Shown here: one piece after another, positions 2,254 through 20,422 of the stretch | How the letters are laid out: every line of letters begins with the position of its first letter | Position numbering within the stretch: position 1 is the first letter of the stretch | NCBI GenBank assembly: GCA_902362375.1 | Contig: CABIVS010000009.1 | Location: 62,001-126,000 of the forward strand | Direction: 5' to 3' | Source: Bacteroidaceae bacterium | GTDB taxonomy: Bacteria > Bacteroidota > Bacteroidia > Bacteroidales > Bacteroidaceae | Length of the DNA stretch: 64,000 nt | Program-made: the position numbers and the translations under genes | The notes under the pieces: generated by a model | Database searches by the model: none | Seen by the model: the letters and a program-made list of their open reading frames with translations, nothing else | Told to the model about the DNA's origin: nothing

Positions 2254-4116
2254 TTATTGGAATGGATTCTTCACAATCGTCGGATTGTTATTAATTACAT
2301 CATCAGCAATGAATGAATAATAGTTAGACTGCTGGAAGGTTCTTGCCACCTTGAAACGTTCGGATTTTGTCTTTACAAAAATGTACTTGTCCTGATCCGA
2401 TGTTCCCGGTTTTGGTTTAGCAATACGATAAGGATATAAACCGTAAACGATCGCTTTATCGTTATCTGTATTTCCGTTCCAGGTGATATCAGCTATTCTC
2501 CATCGTTTCATATCAAAATAACGGTGATCTTCGAAAGCTAGTTCCACACGACGTTCGTTCTGAATCTTTTCTATTGTCAGGCTTGTCAGACTGTTGGCCG
2601 GGAAACCGGCACGCTGACGCAAGCGGTTGATGTAGGGTAAAGCTGTCGGCTCGTCATTCAATTCAAAAGCAGCTTCGGCAGCATTCAAATAGATTTCACC
2701 CAGACGGAACCAAGGCCACCAGTTTTCAGCGTAGTTACGGAGAGTGTAACCGGATGCCTCACTGATAAACTTACGGATATAAAATCCGGTATTGCTCACG
2801 TTAGGACTATTAGTCTGAGGACCGTCCTGGCCGACAAAAGTTTTATCATCGTCATAAGCACTTCCTAATTTCGAGTCTGTCAGTAAGTCGTAGGAACCGG
2901 TCTTATCATTCCATACTGCTACTCCTGCCTGAATATCCACATCCTGATTTCTGAACTTTGAGCCCGGATAGACGATCGTACCATACAAACGTGCATCTTT
3001 ATTGGCAAAGATATCGCTCGGAGTATCATATACTACATAGTCATTACCATTCTTATAATGTAAGGTCCCCGAAGTTCCATCCAAATAATCAAATGCTTCT
3101 ACCAATCCTAAAGACGGACCGATGCAAGAAGAATTATCGTTATCTTCTCTCAAATGATGAACTACATTATCATAACCGAAGCTATGCACTTTCAAAGGAT
3201 TCTTATAGTCTTTCACCCAAATAGCCTCCTTATTCAGCGTCTTGTCCACAAACATCTTATAGAAGTTCACTCCTTTATCTGACTCCTTCTCATAAAGTTC
3301 ATATCCACCGTTTTTAATGATTTCCTGCGAAGCTGTCAACGATTTACGATAATAATCGTCTGCCATATCAGCCGGAATACCTACTTCTCCGCCAGACGTT
3401 ACAATATTAGGAGTCTTCAGCGCATTATATTTGGCAATAGAACCGGCATACAGCATAGCACGGCTTTCCAATGCCAATGCAGTGTAATAGTTGGCACGAC
3501 TTTGACTGCCTTTATTGCCCAATTGTGACTTGATTGCTTCACATTCACTGTATACAAAGTCATATATTTCGTGCTCCTTGGCACGCGGATTACGTAAGTA
3601 AGAAGGATCTCCGCTGAAATCATACTCCAAAGTAGTTGTAATCAATGGTACACCACCCATACGTCTTACAAGCTCAAAATAAACGTAAGCGCGGATAAAG
3701 CGAAATTCAGCTTTGAACTGTAGCTTGGCATCTGCTGAAATATCTGTTCCATATTTGTCGATATTCTCAATAGACATATTGATGTCACGTATCAATCCAT
3801 AATCCCACCAACGTCCGTAGTCGTTGCCATAACGTAATTCATTACGATAATTCTGATCCAGCGTGCCACAGTACATAGCATCATCCGTTTCGCACATACC
3901 ACCGGTATTGAAGTCACCGTGCAACTGTGGAATACGATTATATAAATTGGCTAGCTGTGATTTAATCATGTTCGGATCGTTCCATACCAACTCATTGGTA
4001 AGAATATTTTTGGGATCTCTTTCGAACCAGCTGTCGCCACAACCCGATAACATGGAAGTAAGGACGGCTCCCAACAGAACTATTTTTATAGATTTGCTTT
4101 TCATGATAGCGTTCAT
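2254..4116 (-). CDS. susD homolog: SusD/RagB-family outer-membrane glycan-binding lipoprotein
   Basis: This 620-residue protein has a lipobox LSGC and then the SusD N-terminal pattern (GDSWFERDPKN). Helical TPR-like stretches follow, with the typical C-terminal signatures RLGEIYLNAAEAAFELND, INRLRQRAGFP and ERRVELAFEDHRYFDMKRW. SusD proteins cap the SusC channel and bind glycan at the cell surface. The gene starts 3 bp after the susC stop codon, which indicates a tight operon. A second in-frame ATG at 4104 gives an equally good signal peptide, so the exact start is uncertain by four codons. Confidence 0.95.
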   Translation of the reverse strand: MNAIMKSKSIKIVLLGAVLTSMLSGCGDSWFERDPKNILTNELVWNDPNMIKSQLANLYNRIPQLHGDFNTGGMCETDDAMYCGTLDQNYRNELRYGNDYGRWWDYGLIRDINMSIENIDKYGTDISADAKLQFKAEFRFIRAYVYFELVRRMGGVPLITTTLEYDFSGDPSYLRNPRAKEHEIYDFVYSECEAIKSQLGNKGSQSRANYYTALALESRAMLYAGSIAKYNALKTPNIVTSGGEVGIPADMADDYYRKSLTASQEIIKNGGYELYEKESDKGVNFYKMFVDKTLNKEAIWVKDYKNPLKVHSFGYDNVVHHLREDNDNSSCIGPSLGLVEAFDYLDGTSGTLHYKNGNDYVVYDTPSDIFANKDARLYGTIVYPGSKFRNQDVDIQAGVAVWNDKTGSYDLLTDSKLGSAYDDDKTFVGQDGPQTNSPNVSNTGFYIRKFISEASGYTLRNYAENWWPWFRLGEIYLNAAEAAFELNDEPTALPYINRLRQRAGFPANSLTSLTIEKIQNERRVELAFEDHRYFDMKRWRIADITWNGNTDNDKAIVYGLYPYRIAKPKPGTSDQDKYIFVKTKSERFKVARTFQQSNYYSFIADDVINNNPTIVKNPFQ

Positions 4117-4119
4117 TTT

Positions 4120-7100
4120 TTAGTATGTAATATTAAATCCAAGAAGGAATGTACGTTGTTGCGGGTATACCACTGCAGCTGCGGCAGTGATTTCAGGATC
4201 GACTCCAAACTTACCCACATTGTCAAACGAACACAAGTTAGAAACATTAGCATAAATACGTACTTTCTGTGCACGAATCGGTCTCAACAGTTGTACCGGC
4301 AGGCTATAACCCACTTCCAGATTCTTGATACGGAGATAACGCACATTGTGCAACCAGAAGTCACTATTCTTATTGTTATAGCTGAATTCACCTTTACGGA
4401 TGGCCGGATAACGTCCCGGTATCCATTCACTTTCCGGATCGTACAAGTCGGCACGATGCCAACGGTCTTCCAATAAATAAACCGGTGAGTTTCCATTTCC
4501 ATGATATGCATTAGCCAATTCATAGTTTTGTCTCCATCCTTGCATAGCCCCACCGGAAAGGTCGATATTCAAGTCAATCCCCTTCCATGCCAAACCGATA
4601 TTACCACCAAACGACATAATAGGTGCCCAACCTTCCGGATAACCGATAGGACGCTCATCCATACTGTTGATAATACCATCACCATTCACATCTTTATAGA
4701 TAAAGTCACCGGGGAGCAGTGTCCGGTTATTATTTCCATCCAAATTTACCGGATAATTACGAATTTCTTCTTCCGACTGGAACTGGCCAATTACCTGATA
4801 TCCCCAATAGATACCTCCCCAACGGCCTTCCGCAGAATTGCGGTATTCATCCCAAGAGTTATTAAAACGCGGTTTATAAGTCTCAATGCTCTTGTAACGT
4901 GAGAAAGTAAAGTTACCGCTTACGGTATAGTTCAAATCACCGATATGGTCGGTCCATGTAACCATACCTTCCGCACCGATATATGCTTGTTTGTTCAAGT
5001 TCTCATTAGGCAATGTATATCCCACTTCACTCGGAAGCAATACATCATAACGGGCAGCCGGTACACCGGTAATATCCTTGCGGAAAGCATCGGCGGTTAC
5101 CTTCAAACGATTATTGAACATAGTCAGGTCAAAACCGATATTCGATGTTGTATTCTTCGTCCAGGATAAGTTGGTAATAGGTAATCCTCTCTGGTTCAAT
5201 CCGGTCACCAGTTCACCATCCAATACAGCATTACCATTATTCCACGTATAACCACTCAAGTAATCAAACAGTTTTACATCCTTTTCTGTACCTGTCTGAC
5301 CAATAGAAGCACGAATCTTCAAATCATCTACAACAGGTCTCAACTTTTCAAAGAATTTCTCTTCCGAGATTCTCCAACCTATAGATACACCCGGGAAGAA
5401 TCCCCAACGATTATTTGCTGCATAGAGATAAGAACCGTCATAACGAGCCAATAATTCAATCAGATATTTGTGGGCAAAGTCGTAATTGATACGGCCAATC
5501 CATCCGGCACGCGCTTCGTAACTCCATTCATCAGCGAAACTGTTGAGCTCATCAAACTGCAATAACGGCAGATAGTCAGTAGAAGGTTCTGTACCATAAG
5601 TTTTCTTAGTCCAATCATAATCGGAGGCTTCATAACCCAAAACCGCCGAAATATTATGGTTTTTAATCTGTTTTGCATAATTCAGTTGCAATTGCATATA
5701 ACGCGCAGGCACACTACGATCTATTTGATTTCTCCAACGTCCTGCGGCAGATGTTCCGTTATAAGTATCTTTCTCCTTATCGTATGTATAGATTTGATAA
5801 GCATATTGATAACCGTCAAAACGGCTGTTGGTGTAATTGTACGAGAACGTAGCTTTTGCAGTCAAACCGAAAGAGAAATCATACTGCGCATAAGCATTGA
5901 TATTGGCATTACGAGTCAAATTATCTTTGTAACCGGCAATGTCACGACTGAATGCAGCCGGATTGTAACCATTCTCGTGTACATTATTGATATATTCCGG
6001 ATTATCATTGGCATAAGGGCTTTCGATAGGCTGCATTTTAAACATAGCCAATATAGCCGAATAATAACCGTCACCACCCGGCAAACCTACGTCTTCACTC
6101 TTTTCATACTTACCGCTAATCTGTGCACCTATTGTAAAACGGTCTGTTATCTTAGTATCAATATTCAACTGAAGATTGGTACGCTCATATTTAAAGTCAG
6201 GCATCATCGCATCTTGTCCGGTATGAGCTACAGAAAGATAATAGTTGGTCTTTTCAGAGCCACCTGTCACATTCGCATTGATGTGGTATTGAGGCACATT
6301 TTTTCTCATTACCATATCATAATAGTCATAGCTCTTATATCCCGGTTCGGTACCAGCTTCCCATTTAGCAAGTTCTTCGGGACTATATAATTTGCTTGGA
6401 TCTTCACCTCTATTCTGTGCTGCTTCGGCCAAACCTCTTACATATTGTCCTGCATTTGCCAATTCGGGGAAACGGGTCAGATTCTGCCAACCATAGTATC
6501 CATTGACATTGATGCTTACTTTATCATTCTTTTTACCTTTCTTGGTAGTTACCAGAACTACACCATTTGATGCACGCAGACCGTAAATAGCAGCAGAAGC
6601 ATCCTTCAAGACAGTGATACTCTCGATATCCTCGATATTCAGAGCATTAAACACATCGCTACCGGAAACATCCGATGCCTGCAACCAGTCGCGGCTGTTC
6701 ATTCCTCCGTAAGGAATGCCGTCGATTACAAACAGGGGGCTACCCATATTACGAATTTCAAGATTAATGCCTCTACCCGGACGGGCATCCACAGCACGCG
6801 TAGACACACCTGCTATCTTACCGGATAAAGCTCCCGCAGTAGTCGTAGAAACAGAACGCGTCAACGCATCAGACTTAACATCACTGATGGCTCCGGTCAG
6901 ACTTTTCTTGGTTTGTGTACCATAACCCACCACCACAACTTCATCCAAGGTTTCCGTATCTTCTTCAAGAACGATTTGAAGATGTGTCTTTCCATCCACC
7001 TTCACCTCTTTAGTCTTATAACCGATGAACGAAATTGCCAATGCGGCATTTTTACTATCTACATTAATTGTGAAATTACCATCGATATCCGTAATGGTTC

Positions 7101-7251
7101 CATTAGAAGTTCCTTTGACAGTAACATTGGCACCAATGATATCATCTCCTCTCACATCGGCCACATGTCCTGTAACTTGTGTTTGTGCAAATGCTGCAGC
7201 TGACAGAAGCAACTGTATGACACACATGCATAAGATTCTTACATACCTCAT
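4120..7251 (-). CDS. susC homolog: SusC/RagA-family TonB-dependent transporter
   Basis: This 1043-residue outer-membrane transporter has a signal peptide ending at AAAFAQ and a carboxypeptidase-regulatory-like domain (about 26-105). A TonB-box-like segment ETLDEVVVVGYG follows, then a plug with IESITVLKDASAAIYGLRASNG, a long beta-barrel, and the terminal aromatic strand GFNITY. It imports oligosaccharides captured with the adjacent SusD using TonB energy. It has no STN domain, so it is not expected to signal through an anti-sigma factor; the divergent HTCS at 7442 is the likely regulator. It is the first gene of the minus-strand operon, with a -7 box about 47 bp upstream of its ATG. Confidence 0.96.
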   Translation of the reverse strand: MRYVRILCMCVIQLLLSAAAFAQTQVTGHVADVRGDDIIGANVTVKGTSNGTITDIDGNFTINVDSKNAALAISFIGYKTKEVKVDGKTHLQIVLEEDTETLDEVVVVGYGTQTKKSLTGAISDVKSDALTRSVSTTTAGALSGKIAGVSTRAVDARPGRGINLEIRNMGSPLFVIDGIPYGGMNSRDWLQASDVSGSDVFNALNIEDIESITVLKDASAAIYGLRASNGVVLVTTKKGKKNDKVSINVNGYYGWQNLTRFPELANAGQYVRGLAEAAQNRGEDPSKLYSPEELAKWEAGTEPGYKSYDYYDMVMRKNVPQYHINANVTGGSEKTNYYLSVAHTGQDAMMPDFKYERTNLQLNIDTKITDRFTIGAQISGKYEKSEDVGLPGGDGYYSAILAMFKMQPIESPYANDNPEYINNVHENGYNPAAFSRDIAGYKDNLTRNANINAYAQYDFSFGLTAKATFSYNYTNSRFDGYQYAYQIYTYDKEKDTYNGTSAAGRWRNQIDRSVPARYMQLQLNYAKQIKNHNISAVLGYEASDYDWTKKTYGTEPSTDYLPLLQFDELNSFADEWSYEARAGWIGRINYDFAHKYLIELLARYDGSYLYAANNRWGFFPGVSIGWRISEEKFFEKLRPVVDDLKIRASIGQTGTEKDVKLFDYLSGYTWNNGNAVLDGELVTGLNQRGLPITNLSWTKNTTSNIGFDLTMFNNRLKVTADAFRKDITGVPAARYDVLLPSEVGYTLPNENLNKQAYIGAEGMVTWTDHIGDLNYTVSGNFTFSRYKSIETYKPRFNNSWDEYRNSAEGRWGGIYWGYQVIGQFQSEEEIRNYPVNLDGNNNRTLLPGDFIYKDVNGDGIINSMDERPIGYPEGWAPIMSFGGNIGLAWKGIDLNIDLSGGAMQGWRQNYELANAYHGNGNSPVYLLEDRWHRADLYDPESEWIPGRYPAIRKGEFSYNNKNSDFWLHNVRYLRIKNLEVGYSLPVQLLRPIRAQKVRIYANVSNLCSFDNVGKFGVDPEITAAAAVVYPQQRTFLLGFNITY

Positions 7252-7441: not shown

Positions 7442-10400
7442 ATGAAAAAACACATTGCTTCTACTTTATTTTTATCCTTGTTGTCTATTCTTCAATTGAC
7501 AGCCCAGTCTCATTCTGTAAAAAAACTGGGGATAGAACAAGGATTATCCAACAATTATGTAGTCAGTATTACACAGGATAAACAAGGCTTTTTATGGTTT
7601 GCTACAGAAGAAGGACTTAATAAGTTTGACGGTACCCGCTTCATTACTTATTATAAAAATGATTTGCCACATAACAATCAGGGAATCACCGGCAACGAAC
7701 TCAACCGGGTGTATGCTGATTCCAAACGTCCCATCATTTGGATAGCCACTCAGCGAGACGGACTAAATGCATACAATTATGACGAACAAACATTTACTGC
7801 CTACCAACATAACCCGGAAAATCCACACAGCCTGATTACAAATGACGTAACGGACATCTCTCCTTCCACCCAAAACGACGATGGTTTATGGGTCAGCACC
7901 TATTATAGAGGTATAGAATATCTAAATATTAATAACGGGCAATTCACACATTATAATAGGAGTACGGTGCCTAGTCTGCCCTCCAATCAGACATGGACAG
8001 TATTGGACGGAGGAGACAACAATTTGTATATCGGCCATGTCGGAAGCGGATTCAGTATTTTTTCTCTCAAAGACAAAAGTGTAAAGAATTTCCAGAATGA
8101 AACGGGAAATCCGACAAGCTTGCCCGGTAATGATGTGTTTTGTATCATAAAAGATGCAAACGGCAACATCTGGTTAGGAACGAATAATGGACTGGCTCTA
8201 TATAATGCTGCCAATGATAACTTTATCACATTCAGAAATAACAAGAATGACAAGTATGCTACTTTATGCAGTCGCATATTATCCATCCGGCAATTAAAAG
8301 ATAATAGACTTTGGATTGCTTCAGAGCTCAATGGCATTGCCATATTAAACCTGAAGCAAGGTATGTTTCTCTCACCAGAGGAGCTTTCTATTGAATACAT
8401 ACAGGAGGGTGATGATAGTCGAAGCCTCTCTAATGCAAGCGCTCGATGTATATTTCAGGATTCTTTCGACAATATCTGGATAGGAACATGGGGAGGAGGC
8501 ATCAACTTTATTAGTAGCAAACCTCCTTTGTTCACCACATTAAGCTATTCCCCGATTCCAAACAATGAAAACAGCCTGAACAACAAAGTAGCCAGCAGTC
8601 TTTGTATGGACAGACAAGGACGGATTTGGATCGGAACAGACGGAGGAGGTATTAATGTATTTGAAGGAGAGAAACGGATTGCCATTTATAAGAAAGAGAG
8701 TGGAGATATTCCTTCAAATTTTATATTAGCTTCTTTACAGGATTCAAAAGGGAATTTATGGTTCGGTTCCTACCAAGGAGGAATCAGCTATTATGATAGC
8801 CGGAATAAAAGATTCCGTTCCATCTCCCTCATGGGACAATCTAATCTAGACGTCCGTACGATCTATGAAGATGCCCAACATAACATTTGGGTTGGATATA
8901 GTGGAGGAATTGTTGTATTAAATCCTCTCACCATGAAAATTATCCAACATTACAATACAGATAATAGCGAACTGCACAGTGATTTTATACGTTCTATAGC
9001 TCAAGATGAGAAAGGACGTTTTTGGATTGGAACTTTCGGAGACGGACTTGGCATATACACCCCGAACTTACAGAAAATCAAGACGTTCACTCAAAGAGAT
9101 GGCTTTTGTTCTAACACCATCAATCAGATCATACAGGATAAACAAAAAAGAATGTGGATAGGAACGGGGGAAGGATTAGTTTGTTTCCTGTCGACTGATG
9201 AGCTGAATTACAAAACTTACCAACGGAAAGACGGGCTGATCAATACGAATATTTGTGCCATAACAGAAGATAAAAAAGGGAATATCTGGTTTAGCAATAA
9301 TAAAGGTATCAGTTGTTATGTCACGAATAAAGGCTGTTTTTATAACTATGACCACTCTGACGATGTTCCGGCAGGAAGTTTTTCAAGCAGTTGTGTCACA
9401 CAAAGCAAGAATGGACAGATTTATTTCGGTTCTATCAATGGAGTATGTTGTTTCAATCCAGACATTACTATGAATGAACAACCGGCCCCGGCAGCAGTTG
9501 TCACAGAGATGAAAATACTGGGACGGTTGAGTAATCTGGAAAACAATGACATGATTATCAATCTCTCCAAAGGACAAAACGTTGAGTTGAGTCATGCACA
9601 AAATAGCTTCGGATTGACATTCAATGTACAAAACTACTCACTTGTCAATCAGGTAGAATATGTGTATATGCTGAAAGGACTCGAAAATTCCTGGTATACC
9701 GTCAACGAAAATAATAGTGTCACTTTCCGAAACATTCCTCCGGGAAAATATGAGTTCCTTATCAAAGCACGAATTCATAATCAAAAATGGCCGGAAGAAG
9801 CCACTTCCCTGACCATCCGTATCAATCCTCCTCTCTGGTTGACGTGGTGGGCAAAACTTATCTACATCTTGGTATCTATCAGCATCACTTATCTTATCTT
9901 GCATGCTTACAAAAAGAAGTTAGATCTGGAGAGTCTCTATACGTTGGAAAAGAAAAACCATGAGCAGGAACAGGAGTTAAATCAGGAACGCTTGCGTTTC
10001 TATACCAATATCACGCATGAGCTGCGTACACCGTTGACCTTAATCCTCGGTCCTCTCGAAGATATGCAAAAAGAAGCATCACTTCCTGCAAAACAAGCCC
10101 AGAAACTATCAGTTATCCATCAGAGCGCACTACGTTTGCTCAATCTGATCAATCAGATACTGGAATTCCGAAAGACGGAGACACAAAACAAGAAATTGTG
10201 TGTCAGCAAAGGAAACATTGCCCCTCTGATTTATGAAATAGGGCTTAAATACAAAGAATTAAATCAAAATACCAAAATAGATTTCCGGATTCAGATAGAA
10301 AAAGAAGAAATGTTTCTTTTCTTCGATAAAGAAATCATCACGATTGTTTTGGACAATCTGATTTCCAACGCTATCAAATATACGGAACAAGGGTGTGTAA

Positions 10401-11560
10401 CGCTAAGTTTGCATCAGACCATGCGTAATGAGGTAGCTTATACGGAAATAAAAGTCAGTGATACAGGGTACGGAATTTCCGCCGAGGCCCTGCCACATAT
10501 TTTCGACCGCTATTATCAGGAAAGCAGCAAGCATCAGGCATCCGGTACAGGTATCGGACTGGCCTTGGTGAAGAATCTCGTCACCTTACATGAAGGGGAA
10601 ATTCGTGCAGAAAGCATCCAAAATGAAGGAAGTACGTTCTATATCAGTTTACTGACGGATAATATCTACCCCAATGCCTTACACGCAGACTCAACGGAAC
10701 CGGTTCAAGAAGAGATGAACCAGAATACGGAACTGGAATATTCACAAGAAGCGACATTAGATACCAGTAAACCAATCCTATTGATTGTAGAAGACAATGA
10801 AGAAATACAGAAATATATAGTTGAATCCTTCACCGACTCGTTTGAGGTAATCACGGCCAACAACGGAGAAGAAGGTAAGCAACAAGCTCTTAGCCGTATC
10901 CCCGATATTGTAGTCAGCGACATTATGATGCCTGTGATGGATGGCATCACTTTATGCAAGCAATTAAAAGATGATGTGCGCACCAGCCATATTCCTATTA
11001 TTCTGCTGACAGCCAAAGATTCTCTCCAAGATAAAGAAGAAGGATATGAAGTAGGAGCCGATTCTTATCTGACGAAACCTTTCAGTGCTTCTCTGTTACG
11101 TAGCCGAATCAATAATCTGCTCGATTCAAGGAAAAAGTTAGTAGCCCAATTCCAGGCGCAATCTACTCCGGGGAGTCAAATAGATTTAAGTGAAAAGCGT
11201 ATAGTAATTGCCGAAGCTTTGAGCAAATTAGATAATGAGTTTATTGAAAAAATTACCCTTTTAATCGAAGAAAACCTTTCTTCAGAGAAGATTGATATTA
11301 ACTATCTATCTGATAAAATGTGCATGAGCGGTTCCACTCTTTACCGAAAAATGAAAGCACTTACGGGACTCTCGACTAACGAATATATCCGAAAAGTGAA
11401 AATGGAGAATGCAGAACGTTTGCTGCTTGAAGGGAAGTTCAATATCTCTGAAATAGCCTATAAAGTAGGAATGAACAGTACGGGATATTTCCGTCAATGC
11501 TTTAAGGAAGAATTTGGTGTCTCTCCTTCAGATTACCTGAAGCAAATTAAACAATCTTGA
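7442..11560 (+). CDS. Hybrid two-component system regulator (HTCS)
   Basis: This 1372-residue one-piece sensor-regulator has a signal peptide, then two seven-bladed propellers built of repeats such as GFLWFATEEGLNKFDG and RIWIGTDGGGINVF (about 30-700), and a Y_Y_Y domain (about 735-795). After a transmembrane helix (about 803-822) come a histidine kinase with phospho-acceptor His859 in NITHELRTPL, an ATPase with NLISNAIKYT and GTGIGLAL, a receiver with phospho-acceptor Asp1160 in SDIMMP, and a C-terminal AraC-type helix-turn-helix. HTCS proteins bind oligosaccharide in the periplasm and activate their PUL. Divergent placement 190 bp from susC makes the adjacent SusCD operon the likely target. 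Confidence 0.96.
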   Translation: MKKHIASTLFLSLLSILQLTAQSHSVKKLGIEQGLSNNYVVSITQDKQGFLWFATEEGLNKFDGTRFITYYKNDLPHNNQGITGNELNRVYADSKRPIIWIATQRDGLNAYNYDEQTFTAYQHNPENPHSLITNDVTDISPSTQNDDGLWVSTYYRGIEYLNINNGQFTHYNRSTVPSLPSNQTWTVLDGGDNNLYIGHVGSGFSIFSLKDKSVKNFQNETGNPTSLPGNDVFCIIKDANGNIWLGTNNGLALYNAANDNFITFRNNKNDKYATLCSRILSIRQLKDNRLWIASELNGIAILNLKQGMFLSPEELSIEYIQEGDDSRSLSNASARCIFQDSFDNIWIGTWGGGINFISSKPPLFTTLSYSPIPNNENSLNNKVASSLCMDRQGRIWIGTDGGGINVFEGEKRIAIYKKESGDIPSNFILASLQDSKGNLWFGSYQGGISYYDSRNKRFRSISLMGQSNLDVRTIYEDAQHNIWVGYSGGIVVLNPLTMKIIQHYNTDNSELHSDFIRSIAQDEKGRFWIGTFGDGLGIYTPNLQKIKTFTQRDGFCSNTINQIIQDKQKRMWIGTGEGLVCFLSTDELNYKTYQRKDGLINTNICAITEDKKGNIWFSNNKGISCYVTNKGCFYNYDHSDDVPAGSFSSSCVTQSKNGQIYFGSINGVCCFNPDITMNEQPAPAAVVTEMKILGRLSNLENNDMIINLSKGQNVELSHAQNSFGLTFNVQNYSLVNQVEYVYMLKGLENSWYTVNENNSVTFRNIPPGKYEFLIKARIHNQKWPEEATSLTIRINPPLWLTWWAKLIYILVSISITYLILHAYKKKLDLESLYTLEKKNHEQEQELNQERLRFYTNITHELRTPLTLILGPLEDMQKEASLPAKQAQKLSVIHQSALRLLNLINQILEFRKTETQNKKLCVSKGNIAPLIYEIGLKYKELNQNTKIDFRIQIEKEEMFLFFDKEIITIVLDNLISNAIKYTEQGCVTLSLHQTMRNEVAYTEIKVSDTGYGISAEALPHIFDRYYQESSKHQASGTGIGLALVKNLVTLHEGEIRAESIQNEGSTFYISLLTDNIYPNALHADSTEPVQEEMNQNTELEYSQEATLDTSKPILLIVEDNEEIQKYIVESFTDSFEVITANNGEEGKQQALSRIPDIVVSDIMMPVMDGITLCKQLKDDVRTSHIPIILLTAKDSLQDKEEGYEVGADSYLTKPFSASLLRSRINNLLDSRKKLVAQFQAQSTPGSQIDLSEKRIVIAEALSKLDNEFIEKITLLIEENLSSEKIDINYLSDKMCMSGSTLYRKMKALTGLSTNEYIRKVKMENAERLLLEGKFNISEIAYKVGMNSTGYFRQCFKEEFGVSPSDYLKQIKQS

Positions 11561-12677: not shown

Positions 12678-12855
12678 CGCATGACAAATAGAAATAGATG
12701 TTCAATAATTACTATAATACTTCCAAAAATCAACATAAAGTTTTCTCAATAACAGAGAAAAAACAAACACCACTCATAAAAACGTTAGGAAAAACAAAAT
12801 AAAGTCTGTTTCTTTGTACGCCAAACCACAATCTTTTACCAGAAGAGAAGAATCT

Positions 12856-13425
12856 ATGAGTAATAAACAACGTATAAGCAATGAACAAGAGATACTGAAA
12901 TTAGTATCTGAAGGGGATTCGAAAGCTTTTCGTACGTTATATATGCATTATTACGACCGCCTTTTCAATTTCGCGATGCTGTTTCTTCATTCGGAAGCTG
13001 CGTGCGAGGACGTTATAGGAGACGTATTTTTTGTTTTGTGGAAAGACAGAAGCATGCTTACGGCTATCCCTAATTTTCACCCTTACATTTATCAAGCAGT
13101 ACGCAACGGATGCCTCAATGTACTGAAAAGTGGATATATCTCCAAAAGGGATGATCTTCCTGAGACCGAACTGCAAATAAACATCACTACCCAGAATCCT
13201 CTGGACGAATTATCCTACAAAGAATTGCATCAAGCAGTAAAACAGGCAATCTCCTCATTGCCCGAACGTTGCCGTGTCATCTTTCAAATGGCGAAAGAAG
13301 ATGAAATGAATCATCGCGAAATAGCAGAGGCTTTAAACGTGAAACTTTGTACCGTAGAACGCCAGCTTTTACTCGCCAAAGCTAAAATAAAGGAATCAAT
13401 AAAACCGTTTCTAGAAAAATTTTAA
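12856..13425 (+). CDS. ECF-type RNA polymerase sigma factor
   Basis: This protein of about 189 residues has sigma region 2 (FRTLYMHYYDRLFNFAMLFL, then ACEDVIGDVFFVLWKD) and a region 4 helix-turn-helix (HREIAEALNVKLCTVERQL). I chose the ATG at 12856 because a purine-rich AGAAGAGAAG sits just upstream. An upstream in-frame TTG at 12814 would add 14 residues without similarity. In Bacteroides, such sigma factors paired with FecR and an STN-domain SusC drive PULs for host glycans. The fecR-like gene follows after 79 bp, so this is the start of the regulatory pair. It should recognise a promoter of the susC operon, which I could not identify. Confidence 0.94.
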   Translation: MSNKQRISNEQEILKLVSEGDSKAFRTLYMHYYDRLFNFAMLFLHSEAACEDVIGDVFFVLWKDRSMLTAIPNFHPYIYQAVRNGCLNVLKSGYISKRDDLPETELQINITTQNPLDELSYKELHQAVKQAISSLPERCRVIFQMAKEDEMNHREIAEALNVKLCTVERQLLLAKAKIKESIKPFLEKF

Positions 13426-13504: not shown

Positions 13505-14401
13505 ATGCGCATTGAAAAAGAAAAAACAAATGAAATGGATGAGTTGATTGCCGGTATCAAACTGCGATCTCCGGGACCAAGTAAAGAACACTCAGCAGAA
13601 AAGTCTTTCTCCCGGCTGATGACACGAATCCAAACTGACAGCAACTCTATTGACATTTTCCGCCGCCGTAACAAGCAGTACCGAATATGGCTCGCAGCAG
13701 CTACGGTGGCTTTGTTAATTGCAATGAGCGGGTGGCTGTACATGATGTTGGATACAGATCCTTCGTTCATCATAAAGACCAACAACAGTGGGATCGTACA
13801 GAAAGTGCCATTGCCCGATGGAACCATGATTCAGTTGAACAATCATTCCAAGCTGATTTATCCGGAGCATTTTTCGGGCGATTCAAGAGAAATCTTTCTG
13901 GAAGGGGAAGCCTACTTTGATGTAAAGCATGATAAGAAACATCCATTCATTGTACGTGCCGGTGAATTAAAGATCAGAGTGTTGGGAACAAAGTTCACTG
14001 TAAATGCCAGTTCGCAGTCTCCGCAGATTACAGCGACCTTACTGGAAGGCTCTATTGAAGTAAGCAATGAAAAGAAACAGATGTTGATGAAACCCAGTCA
14101 GCAACTGAAGTACGATGTTAACAGCGGAAATATGCTGCTCACAGAATTAAACAATGCCATCCGTGAGATACGTTGGACCCAGAATGTATGGGTATTGTCA
14201 GATACTCCTTTGCTCGACATCTGCCAACGCCTGGAACAACTGTTTAATGTGAAATTTATCATCATGAATGATGAGCTGATAGGAAAATCCTTTACTGGAG
14301 AGTTTTATACCAATGAGCCGCTTGAGTCTATTTTAAAAATAATGCAGATAAGCACCCCGTTCAAGTATGAACGAAAAGGAAAAAATATAATACTAAAATA
14401 A
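13505..14401 (+). CDS. FecR-family anti-sigma factor
   Basis: This 298-residue inner-membrane protein has an N-terminal cytoplasmic part (about 1-60) that would hold the sigma factor and one transmembrane helix (about 61-82). Its periplasmic FecR domain carries VPLPDGTMIQLNNHSKLIYP and FLEGEAYFDV (about 95-195), and the C-terminal part is of DUF4974 type (about 228-298). It would release the ECF sigma factor when the STN domain of the neighbouring SusC reports substrate transport. Position between the sigma factor and susC supports this. The cytoplasmic N-terminus has no clear conserved anti-sigma motif beyond length and position. Confidence 0.93.
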   Translation: MRIEKEKTNEMDELIAGIKLRSPGPSKEHSAEKSFSRLMTRIQTDSNSIDIFRRRNKQYRIWLAAATVALLIAMSGWLYMMLDTDPSFIIKTNNSGIVQKVPLPDGTMIQLNNHSKLIYPEHFSGDSREIFLEGEAYFDVKHDKKHPFIVRAGELKIRVLGTKFTVNASSQSPQITATLLEGSIEVSNEKKQMLMKPSQQLKYDVNSGNMLLTELNNAIREIRWTQNVWVLSDTPLLDICQRLEQLFNVKFIIMNDELIGKSFTGEFYTNEPLESILKIMQISTPFKYERKGKNIILK

Positions 14402-14455
14402 CCCATATTGTAAAACTTAAAAAACGAATAGCCTATGACATAGTACTGTAAAAAA

Positions 14456-14560
14456 CACAGAAAAAGCGAGAAAATAGTACCAATATTTTCCCGCTTCTGA
14501 GACTTTGCAAAAATCATGACGATGCCCATCGTCACAATCCTTAATTTCTAATTTATAAAA
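14456..14560 (-). ncRNA. Predicted cis-antisense small RNA over the susC leader (DonS-like)
   Basis: The gap between fecR and susC carries the signals of an independent minus-strand transcript. A promoter lies at 14567-14599. A first hairpin sits at 14517-14534 (TGACGAT/ATCGTCA, 4-nt loop). A second at 14465-14495 (AGCG, 1-nt mismatch, GAAAATA paired to its complement) is followed on the minus strand by a T-run, like an intrinsic terminator. The predicted RNA is about 100 nt and fully complementary to the 5' leader of the susC mRNA. Known background: Bacteroides PULs run by ECF sigma/anti-sigma pairs often carry antisense repressor RNAs at susC, such as DonS in B. fragilis. Existence here is inference from sequence signals. 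Confidence 0.65.
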
Positions 14561-14562
14561 GT

Positions 14563-17500
14563 ATGACAAACTTAAGAAAGTACCAAATTTCTTATCAAAA
14601 ATATTGCCACACTTCCACACAAGAGCTCAAAAAAGACCTCTTTTTGGCAATATTACTTTTAATGATTCCCTATTTTGCTCTCGCACAGACCGTGAAACGG
14701 GATGTCAAGCTAGACTTTACGAATACCTCCATTGCCAAAGTAATCGAAAGTATTGAGAAACAAAGTGGATATTCTTTCTTTTACAACAGTGACATCAACA
14801 CTAATCAGAAGACGTCAATAAAGATGACATCGAATGATATTAATCAAATCGTAACCTCTTTACTGAAAAACACTTCCATAGATTATCGGATTACAGACAA
14901 ACGGATTGTTTTGTTTATCAAAAAATCAGGAACGGAACAACAGAAATCCTATGCCGTTTCGGGTGTAATAAATGATTCCTCCGGTCCTGTTATCGGAGCT
15001 TCCATCTCCACTAAAAACGGACAGGGAACCATTACTTCTATTGACGGTGATTTCCGTTTGGAAAATATACACGTCGGTGATGTGCTGACTGTTTCTTATA
15101 TCGGTTATCAGACACAGAACATTGTTTTCAACGGTCAGACGAGACTGAACATCGTCCTGTCGGAAGAAGCAACTGAACTGGAGCAGGTGGTTGTAACCGC
15201 TTTGGGTATCAAACGTTCGGAGAAAGCGTTGAGCTACAATGTACAACAGTTAAGCTCTGACGATATCACTACTGTAAAGGATGCGAATTTTATGAACTCG
15301 CTGAATGGTAAGGTTGCAGGTGTGACAATCAATTCTTCGGCATCCGGTGCGGGTTCTGCAGCGCGTGTGGTAATGCGTGGCGTGAAGTCAATTACCAAAT
15401 CTAATAATGCCCTTTACGTTATCGACGGTATTCCGATGTTCAACGTTGTGAACGAAGGGACCGATACGGGTATCACAGCCGACCAGCCTGGTAGTGACGC
15501 CGTTGCGGATATCAACCCGGAAGATATTGAGTCCATCAACATGCTGACAGGTCCCGCTGCAGCGGCACTTTATGGTAATGCTGCTGCTTCCGGTGTAGTA
15601 CTTATCAACACCAAGAAAGGAACAAAAGATAAAACGAATATCAGTGTATCGAGCAGTACTACTTTCTCTACTCCCACCATGTTACCCAAAATGCAAAGTA
15701 AATATGGAAATAAAGATGGAGTATTCGCCAGCTGGGGTGACCTTGTGAACAGCAACTATGACCCTGAAAAGTTTTTCCGCACAGGTGTAAATACCATTAA
15801 TTCGGTATCGCTCTCTACTGGTACGTCAAAAAACCAGACGTATGTTTCCGTCTCGGCAACTAACTCAAACGGTATTCTGCCCAACAACAAATACGAACGT
15901 TATAACGTATCAGGACGCAATACCGCTAGTTTCCTGAACGACAAACTGGTTCTGGACTTCGGTGCCAACCTGATTTTCCAGAATGACAGAAATATGACCG
16001 CACAGGGACGTTATTTCAACCCGCTTACCGCTTTATACCTGTTCCCACGCGGAGAAAACTTCGATGCAATCCGTATGTACGAACGCTACAACGAAGGTTT
16101 GGGCATTTATGAACAATACTGGCCGTACGAAACTCAAAGTATGGAACTGCAAAATCCTTACTGGACCATGAACCGCATTGTCCGTGAGAATAAAAAGAAA
16201 CGTTTCATGACCAATGCATCGTTAAAATGGAACATCATCGACGGAATTGACATTACCGGTCGTCTGAAATATGACAAAACAGATATGCGTTCCACCGATA
16301 AGCGCTACGCTTCTACTATCGAGCAGTTTGCCAGCGATTATGGTGGTTACTATGACAACCGCAAAGAGTACAGCAGTTTCTACGGTGACATCATGCTGAA
16401 CATTGCCAAATCATTCAACGAAAACATGTGGTCCGTAAATGCCAATATCGGAGCTTCTATCAACGACCAGAGAGAAGAGCAGATAGGTCATGGCGGTAAC
16501 CTGGAAGGTATTTATAACTTCTTTGCCGTACACAACATTGACACATCTGCCAAATACAGAAGAATCCAATCGGGATATATCCAGCAGTCGCAAGGTGTTT
16601 TCATCAATGCGGAAGTCGGCTACAAGAGTATGTTTTACTTAACCGCTACCGGACGTAACGACTGGGAATCACAACTTGCCTTTTCCGAAGCATCTTCTTT
16701 CTTCTATCCATCCGTAGGTTTGTCCGGTGTCATTTCCAGCATGGCCAGACTACCCGAATGGATTTCATTCCTGAAAGTGCGCGGTTCATATACAGAAGTA
16801 GGTACTTCTTTCGAGCGTTTCATCACACGTCCGACATACGAATTCAATATAGCTTCCGGTAAATGGTCTTCCACATCCATTTACCCGATGCGTAACCTGA
16901 AACCGGAAAAGACCCGTTCATGGGAATTCGGTCTGAACTCAAAATGGTTGGACAACCGTCTTTCTTTCGATTTGACTTATTATAAGTCGAACACGATCAA
17001 CCAGACTTTCACCGCCGACCTATCTATCTCGTCCGGATACTCCAAAGCGTATATCCAAAGTGGTAATGTCCGCAATGAAGGTATAGAAATGGCATTAGGA
17101 TATAGCGACAAGTGGAACGGTTTTGCATGGGACAGCCACCTGACTCTCTCTTGGAACAAGAATAAAATTATCAAGCTGACCGAAGGTTCCATTAACCCGA
17201 TGACCGGAGAGCCAATTACCAAAGATAATTACGATATGGGACAATTAGGCAATCTCGATGCACGTGTAAAATTATACAAAGGCGGTTCTATCGGTGACGT
17301 ATATGCTACTCACCGTATCAAGAGAGACGGTAATGGTAACGTCTTCGTTTCACAGGAAGGAAAGATTGAAATCGAATCGGTAGACGAATTCAAACTAGGT
17401 TCGATCCTGCCGAAGACAAACATGGGATGGAGCAACAACTTCTCTTACAAAGGTGTCAATCTGGGTATGACGCTTACTGCTCGTTTCGGTGGTATTGCCT

Positions 17501-17895
17501 TGTCCGGTACACAAAGTGTGCTTGACCAGTACGGAGTTTCACAAGTAACTGCCAACTACCGTGATACTGGTGGCGTGCCTATCAATCATGGATATGTAGA
17601 TACGGAAAAATACTTTGACACTGTGAAAGGATACGCTGCATATTATACATACAGCGCCACCAATGTGCGTCTGGCGGAATTGAGCCTGAGCTACACTTTG
17701 CCTAAAGAATGGTTCCGTGACAAACTAAGAATGACCGTCGGATTAGTAGGTAAGAATCTCTGGATGATTTATTGCAAGGCACCTTTCGACCCAGAAGCAA
17801 CCGCATCAACACAGTCGAACTACTATCAAAGTTATGACTACTTTATGCAGCCCACTACACGTAATCTCGGATTTAGCGTAAAACTCAATTTCTAA
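14563..17895 (+). CDS. susC homolog: SusC-family TonB-dependent transporter with N-terminal STN signalling domain
   Basis: This 1110-residue transporter has a signal peptide ending FALAQ and an STN domain (about 48-120, LDFTNTSIAKVIESIEKQSG). It continues with a carboxypeptidase-regulatory-like domain (about 130-200), a TonB-box-like TELEQVVVTALG, a plug with IESINMLTGPAAAALYGNAA, and a barrel ending FSVKLNF. The STN domain is known to contact FecR-type anti-sigma factors, so this protein should both import the glycan and trigger its own operon through the sigma/FecR pair just upstream. No TAnnTTTG box was seen on the plus strand in its leader, which fits control by an alternative sigma factor. 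Confidence 0.96.
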   Translation: MTNLRKYQISYQKYCHTSTQELKKDLFLAILLLMIPYFALAQTVKRDVKLDFTNTSIAKVIESIEKQSGYSFFYNSDINTNQKTSIKMTSNDINQIVTSLLKNTSIDYRITDKRIVLFIKKSGTEQQKSYAVSGVINDSSGPVIGASISTKNGQGTITSIDGDFRLENIHVGDVLTVSYIGYQTQNIVFNGQTRLNIVLSEEATELEQVVVTALGIKRSEKALSYNVQQLSSDDITTVKDANFMNSLNGKVAGVTINSSASGAGSAARVVMRGVKSITKSNNALYVIDGIPMFNVVNEGTDTGITADQPGSDAVADINPEDIESINMLTGPAAAALYGNAAASGVVLINTKKGTKDKTNISVSSSTTFSTPTMLPKMQSKYGNKDGVFASWGDLVNSNYDPEKFFRTGVNTINSVSLSTGTSKNQTYVSVSATNSNGILPNNKYERYNVSGRNTASFLNDKLVLDFGANLIFQNDRNMTAQGRYFNPLTALYLFPRGENFDAIRMYERYNEGLGIYEQYWPYETQSMELQNPYWTMNRIVRENKKKRFMTNASLKWNIIDGIDITGRLKYDKTDMRSTDKRYASTIEQFASDYGGYYDNRKEYSSFYGDIMLNIAKSFNENMWSVNANIGASINDQREEQIGHGGNLEGIYNFFAVHNIDTSAKYRRIQSGYIQQSQGVFINAEVGYKSMFYLTATGRNDWESQLAFSEASSFFYPSVGLSGVISSMARLPEWISFLKVRGSYTEVGTSFERFITRPTYEFNIASGKWSSTSIYPMRNLKPEKTRSWEFGLNSKWLDNRLSFDLTYYKSNTINQTFTADLSISSGYSKAYIQSGNVRNEGIEMALGYSDKWNGFAWDSHLTLSWNKNKIIKLTEGSINPMTGEPITKDNYDMGQLGNLDARVKLYKGGSIGDVYATHRIKRDGNGNVFVSQEGKIEIESVDEFKLGSILPKTNMGWSNNFSYKGVNLGMTLTARFGGIALSGTQSVLDQYGVSQVTANYRDTGGVPINHGYVDTEKYFDTVKGYAAYYTYSATNVRLAELSLSYTLPKEWFRDKLRMTVGLVGKNLWMIYCKAPFDPEATASTQSNYYQSYDYFMQPTTRNLGFSVKLNF
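14567..14599 (-). promoter_or_regulatory. Complete -33/-7 promoter, minus strand, inside the start of susC
   Basis: On the minus strand TTTG (14599-14596) is followed after 21 nt by TAAGTTTG (14574-14567), matching both Bacteroides consensus elements at correct spacing. It points away from susC into the leader and would start an RNA near 14560. It overlaps the first dozen codons of susC, so these bases serve two purposes. Confidence 0.65.
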
Positions 17896-17907: not shown

Positions 17908-19461
17908 ATGAAAAAAGTAACCCAAATAATATGTTCGGTACTATTGACAGTACTCATGTGTAATTGTACGGGAAAATTTGAGGAATTCAACACCAATCAG
18001 TATCAGCCACCTACATTGAACTCCCGTCTGCTGTTTGCACAACTTATCACGTGTATGTCTTCTACCGAAGAGAACCCCGCCCAACGTAACATCACTTTCT
18101 GGGCAGGTCCGTTCGGTGGCATGCTGACTCCTTCCAGCAGTTGGAGCCGGTCGCAACATTTCTATACTTATAATGTAGACGACAACTGGAATAAATGGTC
18201 GGTTGACTGGTATTTCAAAAATTTCTACCCCAACTATTTCTCCATCGAGCGTTTCAGCGAAGCCTCGGGACACTATTATGCATTAGCTAAAATCATGCGG
18301 GTATATATCATGCAGATTATAGCTACCATGCAAGGTCCGCTTCCTTACACAAAAGTTGAAAGCGGACAATACTCCGTAGGATACGATAATGAAGAGACTG
18401 CATGGAAAGCAATGATGGACGATTTGGATTACAGCATCGGCGTACTCACCGCATTGATGAATACCGACCCGTCCTTTAACGAGTTGACCACAGAAGACCG
18501 TATCTATCAGGGAGATTATAAGAAATGGATTAAATTCGCCAATTCCCTGAAACTACGTATCGCTATCCGCATCAGTAATGCAGTACCCGAATATGCACAG
18601 GAAAAAGCAGAAGAAGCCGTATCGCATCCATACGGAGTGATGGACAGTAACGACTGCGACGCCTACGACAACATCACTGCAACGAACTATAAGAATGGTC
18701 TTGCCAGTGTGAACTCTTGGGGGGAGGTTCGTGCCAATGCCTGCATCGTCTCCTTTATGAACGGATATCAGGATCCTCGTTGCGAAGCCTACTTTACTAA
18801 ATCATCCGCATCCGGAGATTATGATTATATCGGCGTGCGCTCCGGCATACAAGGTATTACCACCAGTATGTTCTCAACCTATTCTACCGTCAAAGTAGAA
18901 ACGAAAACTCCCATGTTGATATTCAACGCAGCAGAAGTAGCTTTCCTACGGGCTGAAGGCGCACTGAAAAAGTGGAACATGGGCGGAACGGCAGAAGAAT
19001 TCTACAAAGAAGGTATCCGCCTGTCATTCAACGAGCACGGAATATCAGGTGCCGATGCATACATTGCCAACAATACGAACGTACCGGCTGATTACATATG
19101 TCCGTTGAACGCTGCCTACAACTACACAAACCCATGCAAATTAACGGTAGCTTGGGATAAGACAGGTGCTAATGCAGACGAAGATAACCTGCAACGCATC
19201 CTGACACAAAAGATGATTGCCAACTTCCCGATTGGAAACGAAACTTGGGCTGACTTCCGTCGCACCGGATATCCGGCTGTATTCCCCGCACATGACAACC
19301 TTTCCACACAAGGTGTCACTAAAGAACGCCAGCAACGCCGTCTGCGTTTCTCGGAAGATGAATACAACAGTAATGGAGCCAACGTTACAGAGGCTTGTAC
19401 TTTCTTGTCGAACGGACAGGATACGGATGCTACTGATTTATGGTGGGCAAAGAAGGATTAA
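17908..19461 (+). CDS. susD homolog: SusD-family outer-membrane glycan-binding lipoprotein
   Basis: This 517-residue lipoprotein (lipobox MCNC, Cys20) is of the SusD-like type found next to STN-SusC proteins: an early YYALAKIMRVYIMQ helix, IYQGDYKKWIKFANSLKLRI in the middle, and FNAAEVAFLRAEGAL before the C-terminus. It would cap the SusC barrel and capture glycan. It starts 12 bp after susC ends, so the two are translated from one mRNA. Its ligand residues cannot be identified from sequence alone. The downstream GH18 gene follows after 28 bp in the same operon. Confidence 0.94.
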   Translation: MKKVTQIICSVLLTVLMCNCTGKFEEFNTNQYQPPTLNSRLLFAQLITCMSSTEENPAQRNITFWAGPFGGMLTPSSSWSRSQHFYTYNVDDNWNKWSVDWYFKNFYPNYFSIERFSEASGHYYALAKIMRVYIMQIIATMQGPLPYTKVESGQYSVGYDNEETAWKAMMDDLDYSIGVLTALMNTDPSFNELTTEDRIYQGDYKKWIKFANSLKLRIAIRISNAVPEYAQEKAEEAVSHPYGVMDSNDCDAYDNITATNYKNGLASVNSWGEVRANACIVSFMNGYQDPRCEAYFTKSSASGDYDYIGVRSGIQGITTSMFSTYSTVKVETKTPMLIFNAAEVAFLRAEGALKKWNMGGTAEEFYKEGIRLSFNEHGISGADAYIANNTNVPADYICPLNAAYNYTNPCKLTVAWDKTGANADEDNLQRILTQKMIANFPIGNETWADFRRTGYPAVFPAHDNLSTQGVTKERQQRRLRFSEDEYNSNGANVTEACTFLSNGQDTDATDLWWAKKD

Positions 19462-19489
19462 CCGGATAAATTACCAAAGAATAAACAAT

Positions 19490-20422
19490 ATGAAAAATAT
19501 ATTCAACCTATTATTTGTGATGCTCATAGCTATGAATTTCCATAGCTGCGATGACTGGACTGAAATGGAAACCAAGAATTTCGAACCTGAACCGCTGTCT
19601 GAAGAATATTATGCAGCACTCAGGGAATATAAAAAAAGTGATCACCCCCTCACATTCGGATGGTTCGGAAGCTGGTCACCGCAAGGGGCAGCCTCGTTAT
19701 ACTACAGTCTGAAAAGTATTCCGGACAGTGTAGATATCGTTTCTATCTGGGGATCATACGGCAGTCTGACGCAATTCCAGAAAGACGACCTGAAATATGT
19801 TCAGGAAGTGTTGGGAACACGTGTTACATTCACCCTATTCTCACACAACATGGCCAATCTTCCCGGTAACTTCGAGAACGTAGCGGAAAATATTCCGAAA
19901 GCTGCACAAGCGATAGCCGACAGTATACACAAATACGGCTATGACGGAATTGATTTCGACCACGAATGTACCAGCAAAGACTTGCTGTACAAAGAAGAAA
20001 ACATGACTACCCTGTTAAGGGAAATGCGTCAAAGATTAGGTCCGGACAAGTTGATTATTGTAGACGGCTTTGTAGATCTCATCTCGGAAGAGGGTTGGAA
20101 ATATGCCAATTATGCAGTATCGCAAGCATACGGAGCAACTTCCGCCACAAGATTAAAACAACGGTTCGACTGGATAAAAGAATATATAGGTCCCGAACGT
20201 TACATCGTAACGGAAAACTTTGAAAGTTGGGCCGCAACCGGTGGAGTTACTTTCCGTGACCCGGAACGAGGAGAAATGCCTTCCTTGCTCGGAATGGCTT
20301 ACTGGAACCCTGTTGAAGGACGCAAAGGGGGACTGGGTACATTCCACATGGAATACGAATTCTCCAACAATTACAAATACTTGCGCCAAGCTATCCAAAT
20401 AATGAACCCAGCTAAAAAATAA
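19490..20422 (+). CDS. Surface GH18 lipoprotein, endo-beta-N-acetylglucosaminidase type
   Basis: The start is the ATG at 19490, which gives a 310-residue lipoprotein (lipobox FHSC, Cys20). An upstream frame overlapping susD is open but has no signal peptide, so I reject it. The catalytic motif is DGIDFDHE (152-159, Glu159 acid), with FDFxxE-like spacing typical of GH18. The lipid anchor and place right after SusD are typical of surface endoglycosidases that release N-glycans or chitooligosaccharide-like chains before uptake, as in known Bacteroides GH18 PUL enzymes. The exact substrate is inferred. The residue after the third motif Asp is His, as in several endo-N-acetylglucosaminidase-type GH18 proteins. 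Confidence 0.88.
   Translation: MKNIFNLLFVMLIAMNFHSCDDWTEMETKNFEPEPLSEEYYAALREYKKSDHPLTFGWFGSWSPQGAASLYYSLKSIPDSVDIVSIWGSYGSLTQFQKDDLKYVQEVLGTRVTFTLFSHNMANLPGNFENVAENIPKAAQAIADSIHKYGYDGIDFDHECTSKDLLYKEENMTTLLREMRQRLGPDKLIIVDGFVDLISEEGWKYANYAVSQAYGATSATRLKQRFDWIKEYIGPERYIVTENFESWAATGGVTFRDPERGEMPSLLGMAYWNPVEGRKGGLGTFHMEYEFSNNYKYLRQAIQIMNPAKK

Follow-up and report, generated by a model that had tools for sequence, protein, structure and literature searches.

A predicted DonS-like antisense RNA opposite the leader of a FecR-linked susC gene

A DonS-like cis-antisense RNA of about 93–104 nt is quite likely encoded opposite the leader of a susC gene in the window (the whole stretch of DNA analysed, 64,000 nucleotides in length), as judged from promoter and terminator geometry. 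This predicted RNA, which would start at the susC ATG or within about a dozen letters of it, probably hides the susC translation start and probably keeps the glycan importer off. An antisense RNA had been proposed in the initial annotation of the same DNA, and the proposal gained support from comparison with other genomes, in the form of a conserved terminator, wobble pairs confined to the minus strand and recurrence at other FecR-susC junctions.

Gut Bacteroides choose host and dietary glycans through dozens of SusC systems, and ECF sigma/anti-sigma PULs of Bacteroides carry DonS-type antisense repressors at susC. DonS of Bacteroides fragilis, which Cao et al. are said to have described in 2016, is reportedly a PUL-associated cis-antisense RNA that represses a susC system. 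The kind of element reported here is thus already known and the present locus is a new example; the possibly novel points are that it occurs with near-regularity at FecR-susC leaders, that it is also present outside Bacteroides, that the antisense promoter is fused to the start codon, and that a mini-ORF accompanies it. The hairpin carries a strand-specific evolutionary signature, and the same layout was noted at the majority of leader-bearing FecR-susC junctions in the genomes under study, so that these junctions provide a ready set of loci for testing translation-start blocking.

The locus and the predicted transcript

ECF sigma factor and FecR genes lie directly 5' of susC, which is the sigma/anti-sigma setting of DonS-type systems, and the gap between fecR and susC is 161 nt (Table 1). 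Genes 3' of that for the SusD-like protein encode a BT1044-like GH18 (19217-20422, in agreement with that family), a BT_3987-like protein, two sulfatases and a GH20, and this content suggests that the substrate of the PUL is a host glycan such as N-glycan. Orthology with PUL16 of B. thetaiotaomicron was also considered, prompted by the available sections of PMC11180146. Comparisons were made in the nearest relatives of the window's genome, the nearest one found being G015 (genus of Bacteroides congonensis), with a leader 93% identical to that of the window and a SusC 96% identical over the first 526 residues. No relative was found among viral contigs and plasmids, and a search of Rfam 15 with the whole window gave no match at gathering score and, for the leader, one chance match (E 0.31). 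Among the genes of a second PUL in the window (2254-7251 on the minus strand and 7442-11560 on the plus strand) are one of SusC size (4120-7251), one for a SusD-like protein and one for a hybrid two-component regulator; neither a minus-strand terminator nor a -7 box was found near the start of this SusC-sized gene or near the start at 53781.

Table 1. Features of the fecR-susC junction and adjoining genes (positions in the window)
Feature	Position	Strand	Basis
ECF sigma factor	12814..13425	+	Pfam
FecR-type anti-sigma factor	13505..14401	+	Pfam FecR and FecR_C
Candidate ECF-sigma promoter of susC, conserved element ATTGTAAAAC...GCCTATGACATAG	14407..14443	+	conservation
Start-stop mini-ORF ATG ACA TAG, overlapping the candidate ECF promoter, just upstream of the antisense terminator	14435..14443	+	alignment
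T-rich tail TCTGTGTTTTTTACAG after the terminator stem	14446..14461	-	sequence
Predicted antisense RNA	14457..14561	-	promoter and terminator geometry; length about 104 nt (P1) or 93 nt (P2)
Intrinsic terminator stem-loop, 15 pairs, 7-nt loop UUGGUAC	14462..14498	-	fold, covariation, G.U wobbles
Middle hairpin of the antisense RNA, 8 pairs	14517..14534	-	covariation
Block TCCTTAATTTCTAATTTATAAAAGTATG ending in the susC start codon	14538..14565	+	1 of 28 columns varies among 9 orthologs
Alternative antisense promoter P2, TTTG-20-TACTTTTA, one mismatch	14556..14587	-	near-consensus
SusC-type TonB-dependent receptor with STN domain	14563..17895	+	Pfam Plug, CarbopepD_reg_2, STN
Antisense promoter P1, -33 TTTG (14599-14596), 21 nt, -7 TAAGTTTG (14574-14567)	14567..14599	-	exact match
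SusD-like protein	17908..19461	+	Pfam

The minus-strand promoter of the initial annotation, TTTG separated by 21 nt from TAAGTTTG, was confirmed as an exact match (P1) that sits within susC codons 2-13. Such a match is by itself weak evidence because five exact patterns with a spacing of 19-22 were noted in the 64-kb window as opposed to 1.76 expected in shuffles; P1 alone among the five was followed within 160 nt by a terminator (-10 kcal/mol or better). The alternative promoter P2 lies 11 nt downstream of P1, and its -7 box shares the A of the susC ATG. This P2-type slot (-7) is the one used most often among FecR-susC leaders, while the -7 box of P1 ends at +4, 11 nt further into susC.

If transcription is taken to begin 6 nt past the -7 box and the tail to be 5 nt long, the predicted RNA would cover about 104 of the 161 nt of the leader rather than the whole of it, as had been claimed at first; the upstream part, which would hold the susC promoter, is uncovered. 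The stem-loop previously placed at 14465-14495 was indeed present, with a T-run on the minus strand, although its extent proved to be that given in Table 1. It was the only terminator-like site found between 14300 and 14800 (0.3 expected), and the sequence that follows the stem on the minus strand is TCTGTGTTTTTT. Through G.U pairs the stem is fully paired on the minus strand, whereas A.C mismatches occur at these places on the plus strand, and the corresponding folding energies are -15.0 and -11.4 kcal/mol. Minus-strand RNA from 14561 to 14446 folds at -34.5 kcal/mol, compared with -19.5 +/- 3.0 for 200 shuffles (z = -5.0), none of which was as low. The nearly invariant block TCCTTAATTTCTAATTTATAAAAGTATG comprises both the susC translation start and the 5' part of the predicted antisense RNA.

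A peptide encoded by the antisense RNA was considered and rejected. In the window an ATG-led frame is open, and L083 has it in a similar form, but it is closed early in L081, L084, L085, L086 and L088, and the peptide it encodes in L082 and in L087 is unrelated; no antisense-RNA frames of at least 5 codons were found in L089-L091. As a separate observation, the terminator loop GTACCAA (14477-14483, plus strand) recurs at 14580-14586 on the same strand, in susC codons 6-8 and inside a second small inverted repeat. This duplication is retained in close relatives, and no co-variation of the two copies was seen in L084, L085 and L088.

Conservation, covariation and recurrence at FecR-susC junctions

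A search with positions 14402-14640 against 158 genomes of the genus Bacteroides gave matches in 13, which comprised eight orthologous junctions (L081-L088), three junctions from a different PUL (L089-L091) with SusC and FecR about 30% identical to those of the window, and two chance matches (L092 and L093) that were dropped from the alignment, the match being only to a stretch in an unrelated gene. The window and L081-L088 are referred to as the nine orthologs; addition of L089-L091 gave an alignment of 12 sequences, 11 of them distinct. The three junctions from the different PUL share the CCTATGACATAG element and the hairpin with the window at 73% DNA identity.

The two parts of the predicted transcription unit differed in conservation among these loci, on which the initial annotation had proposed that its reading be judged. 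The terminator hairpin was retained, with compensatory changes, in all 12 aligned leaders, whereas P1 was exact in only four of the nine orthologs (the window, L081, L082 and L083) and was degraded in the other five, having one mismatch in L084, two in L085 and L086 and no counterpart within two mismatches in L087 and L088. For P2, a single mismatch was counted in the window, L081-L083, L087 and L088 and two in L084-L086, and all five orthologs with a degraded P1 retain a promoter with one or two mismatches at the start codon (TTTG or CTTG, 20 nt, TACTTTTA or TACATTTA). No promoter within two mismatches was found in the examined slots of L089-L091. Across the four P1 sequences, 39 of the first 40 nt of susC are invariant, a number reached by none of 1459 other 40-nt windows. 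Identity of susC codons 2-13 was 12/12, 12/12 and 11/12, as opposed to 339/456, 198/388 and 188/380 in the rest compared. This freezing of codons under P1 points to a constraint beyond the protein, one that could also serve the translation start.

Covariation in the gap, proposed earlier as a check, was found for both the terminator and the middle hairpin, each with a score reached by 0 of 500 shuffles; these shuffles leave relatedness in, and related sequences can exceed them without structure. In the terminator helix (12 sequences), 92.7% of cells are paired and five pairs have changed on both sides, while 34 of 500 shuffles had at least as many further pair types. The 180 cells of this helix are made up of 139 Watson-Crick pairs, 28 that are G.U on the minus strand, none that are G.U on the plus strand and 13 other mismatches, confined to the two outermost pairs. 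Since the wobbles are G.U on the minus strand in 28 cells and on the plus strand in none, the helix is maintained as minus-strand RNA. In the middle hairpin (nine orthologs, eight distinct sequences), 93.5% of cells are paired and four pairs have changed on both sides, as in 22 of 500 shuffles, with further pair types reached by 205 of 500; its wobbles (five on the minus and three on the plus strand) indicate no clear strand preference.

Strand preference was also evident when the best DNA inverted repeat of each leader was taken with G.T and A.C scored equally. Among the 60 of 83 FecR-susC leaders that passed the repeat threshold, wobbles were G.U on the minus strand in 69 cases and on the plus strand in 7, and a T-tract adjoined the repeat on the minus strand in 49 and on the plus strand in 2; related leaders in this test are not independent. 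Corresponding wobble counts for control genes were 12 and 10 (12 repeats of 63 genes), with T-tracts in 1 and 3, or 23 and 16 at a lower threshold (24 repeats). Base composition accounts for only a 1.7-fold bias, since shuffled leaders gave 257 minus-strand and 151 plus-strand wobbles.

The frequency of this layout was determined for FecR-susC leaders (gap of at least 60 nt), with the most upstream ATG as start codon and -10 kcal/mol or better as terminator threshold, and terminator and slot counts were compared by Fisher and sign tests. The leader sets overlap (L001, L002, L006 and orthologs) and are therefore not independent. In G015, minus-strand terminators were noted at 23 of 28 FecR-susC leaders, 0 of 11 short gaps and 5 of 63 genes without FecR, compared with 1, 2 and 7, respectively, for plus-strand terminators. 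TAnnTTTG was found in slot -7 at 13 of the 28 leaders and 1 of the 63 controls, and because it ends at -7 from the ATG, this box contains the A of the start codon. The controls were 70 Plug loci minus 7 that were FecR-linked, with some non-SusC TonB receptors among them. Ten of 49 FecR matches in G015 were left out, i.e., L099 and L116 (no following ORF), L100, L104, L105, L121, L122, L205 and L207 (judged not SusC from the N-terminus, without a domain search) and L094, a SusC-like locus with a gap of -4 and a weak minus-strand match (-10.6 kcal/mol) inside the fecR side, inclusion of which would raise the short-gap count to 1 of 12.

Similar results were obtained with other genomes. Minus-strand terminators, plus-strand terminators and slot -7 boxes were noted, respectively, at 15, 1 and 13 of 18 leaders in G019 (from B. 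fragilis S82), at 15, 0 and 8 of 20 in G002, at 12, 1 and 9 of 18 in G159 (Dysgonomonas), where next genes were unscreened for SusC identity, and at 29, 2 and 19 of 37 in a wide set that includes Alistipes and Dysgonomonas. In the wide set, the corresponding counts for loci in which no FecR was found were 4, 3 and 0 of 28, some of which (e.g., L033 and L067) are maybe FecR-linked on broken contigs. The 26 FecR matches of G019 included L232, which had no following ORF, and L230 and L236, which were judged not SusC and both had a minus-strand match near -11.7. Loci were available for 30 of 51 FecR matches in G002, three without a following ORF, six with a short gap and one (L267) judged not SusC, while the 23 matches of G159 included five short gaps, two of them (L240 and L259) with a weak minus-strand match. 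FecR was upstream in 38 of the 80 wide-set loci, 37 of which had an ATG start (L037 was dropped), and 28 of the remaining 42 had an ATG and 250 nt upstream and served as controls.

A box in slots -15 to +8 occurred together with a terminator in 18 of 28 leaders of G015, 13 of 18 of G019 and 24 of 37 of the wide set; the terminator was absent from 5, 3 and 8 leaders of these sets, respectively. The -33 element is loose, since just 17 of 55 leaders combine an exact TTTG with the -7 box. Predicted antisense RNA lengths across leaders ranged from 67 to 134 nt (median 92), with 40 of 55 in the range of 78-128 nt. Five FecR-linked susC leaders of at least 300 nt (L005, L006, L031, L066 and L217) had neither a minus-strand terminator nor a -7 box and represent natural contrasts.

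Mode of action and alternative explanations

Blocking of the susC translation start is pointed to because the RNA would begin at or near the ATG, its signature is strand-specific and the layout is recurrent, and such blocking together with duplex decay would be the simplest reading of its action. Without glycan, the housekeeping sigma factor would make the antisense RNA from the promoter at the susC start, and this RNA would pair with the leader of leaky susC mRNA, hide the A-rich translation start and leave an RNA duplex exposed to cleavage, while its terminator would keep the antisense polymerase from reaching the ECF promoter presumed for susC. Activation of the ECF sigma factor by glycan would then allow strong sense transcription to cross the antisense promoter and shut it down, and the sense transcript would titrate the remaining antisense RNA, with a sharp switch as the expected outcome. 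As a target, the susC translation start is plausible because pairing of the trans-acting sRNA FopS near susC start codons blocks susC translation, as stated in the available sections of PMC11697453; the same sections describe the mechanism of DonS repression as unknown. An A-rich start, with A at -3, -6 and -11 to -15, is favoured by Bacteroidota ribosomes according to passages of PMC7366714.

Alternative explanations differ in what they would make of the promoter and the hairpin. Convergent transcription alone might matter, with antisense polymerases that collide with or block susC polymerases and an RNA that is a by-product. The antisense promoter does point toward the presumed susC promoter, slightly more than 100 nt away, and the terminator ends just short of the latter, but covariation of the middle hairpin, which is not a terminator, suggests selection on the RNA product or on the mirrored mRNA leader, and this explanation is considered unlikely. 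It is far less likely that the antisense promoter is spurious and functionless in A+T-rich DNA. Although the five exact patterns in the window (1.76 expected) agree with that view, as does the caution in passages of PMC7366714 that some antisense starts may be random, the terminator is conserved and covarying and recurrence is concentrated at FecR-susC leaders.

Two further explanations concern the inverted repeat itself. As a sense-strand structure, it could terminate or attenuate transcription of sigma-fecR or of the susC leader, in keeping with a fold on the plus strand as well (-11.4 versus -15.0 kcal/mol on the minus strand) and with a fecR end only 60 nt upstream. This is very improbable: of 60 leaders, 49 have a T-tract on the minus strand and 2 on the plus strand; plus-strand terminators were noted at 1 of 28 leaders in G015; the wobbles become A.C mismatches on the plus strand; and short fecR-susC gaps have a minus-strand terminator in 0 of 11 cases (1 of 12 with L094). 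A DNA operator for a regulator would be compatible with the palindromic core and its conserved position; however, a palindrome gives no reason for one-strand preference of G.T over A.C (69:7) or for a one-sided T-tract, and the arm sequences vary from leader to leader, so that an operator seems scarcely credible.

Like members of the DonS family, which are 78-128 nt long according to passages of PMC7366714, the RNA predicted in the window would be antisense to a susC leader, have its own promoter and, at 93-104 nt, fall within the reported range; the family is reported, in the text available, for host- or mucosal-glycan PULs, and the window PUL has GH18, GH20 and sulfatases. Unlike them, the exact promoter of the window is inside coding sequence and its RNA is predicted. 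The same passages of PMC7366714 report a canonical promoter in 52% of cis-antisense candidates. In B. thetaiotaomicron, 32 PUL-associated antisense RNAs are annotated, and both negative and positive correlations occur between an antisense RNA and its susC (PMC10994844, available sections). These RNAs also lie opposite PUL operons at susC homologs, but were annotated from RNA-seq, whereas that of the window is predicted, in another genome. Among the FopS/GibS sRNAs, FopS resembles the window element in acting at the susC translation start and in carrying an intrinsic terminator (PMC11697453, available sections), but is one of 14 paralogs whose 5' seed is single-stranded, whereas a search with the window element found one match in each matching genome (13 of 158 genomes, two by chance, with at most five candidates scored per genome and every candidate in G001 and G002). 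No report of a fusion of antisense promoter with start codon was found in the literature searched, as far as its text was available; the primary DonS paper lies outside that literature and may describe parts of it.

A start-stop mini-ORF in the leader

Alignment indicated a mini-ORF of the form ATG-NNN-TAG or ATG-NNN-TAA in all nine orthologs. In 64 of 67 leaders with a minus-strand terminator, an ATG, often as GCCTATG, was present within 75 nt upstream of the hairpin, and an in-frame stop followed within 7 codons in 53 of these 64 as opposed to 11 and 18 in the other two frames. The same bias was noted in the CCTATG subset (31 of 32 versus 7 and 9) and, without redundant leaders, in 42 of 52 (versus 11 and 13). 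It was also seen when upstream context was the sole criterion for the ATG, which could then be assigned in 57 of 67 leaders; of the 46 that were non-redundant, 40 had the early stop, versus 11 and 10. Early stops after 137 upstream ATGs of control genes numbered 52, 56 and 39 by frame. CCTATG was found in 32 of 67 terminator-bearing leaders; elsewhere it was seen in none of 16 others with a gap of at least 60 nt, in 1 of 17 with a short gap and in 3 of 63 controls. By eye, some leaders that have no terminator (L217) also had an ATG and early stop. A replicate in G002, mostly orthologs of G015 loci, gave 11 of 15 for frame 0 versus 1 and 4. Frame bias was seen in Bacteroides and Alistipes leaders; none was evident in the Dysgonomonas genome (7, 3 and 8 of 11).

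In the 46 leaders, 25 AACC elements occur 15-20 nt before the ATG (partly due to the choice rule); an ECF -10 element would put the ATG at this place too, so that the mini-ORF ATG may precede the mRNA start. Position -3 of this ATG is mostly C, not the favoured A. No upstream ORF in Bacteroides polysaccharide utilization leaders was reported in the literature searched, and among the leader-peptide titles listed, none was evidently on a susC-leader mini-ORF. FecR-controlled susC leaders are tentatively regarded as a composite cassette of ECF promoter, mini-ORF of 1-7 codons, minus-only terminator hairpin and start codon/-7 box, in which the mini-ORF would be translated and would couple what ribosomes do at the 5' end of the mRNA to antisense pairing; this reading, as a whole, is possible but somewhat doubtful. 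As part of it, the cassette layout may be traceable in Bacteroides and Alistipes, and its antisense part also in Dysgonomonas.

A subgroup of mini-ORFs was noted to end in Pro or Pro-Pro before the stop (e.g., MKDRPP* and MNYYKPP*). This subgroup comprises L107, L117, L197, L199, L229, L231 and L233, as well as L274, L280 and L282, and the ending is kept between related genomes while other residues change.
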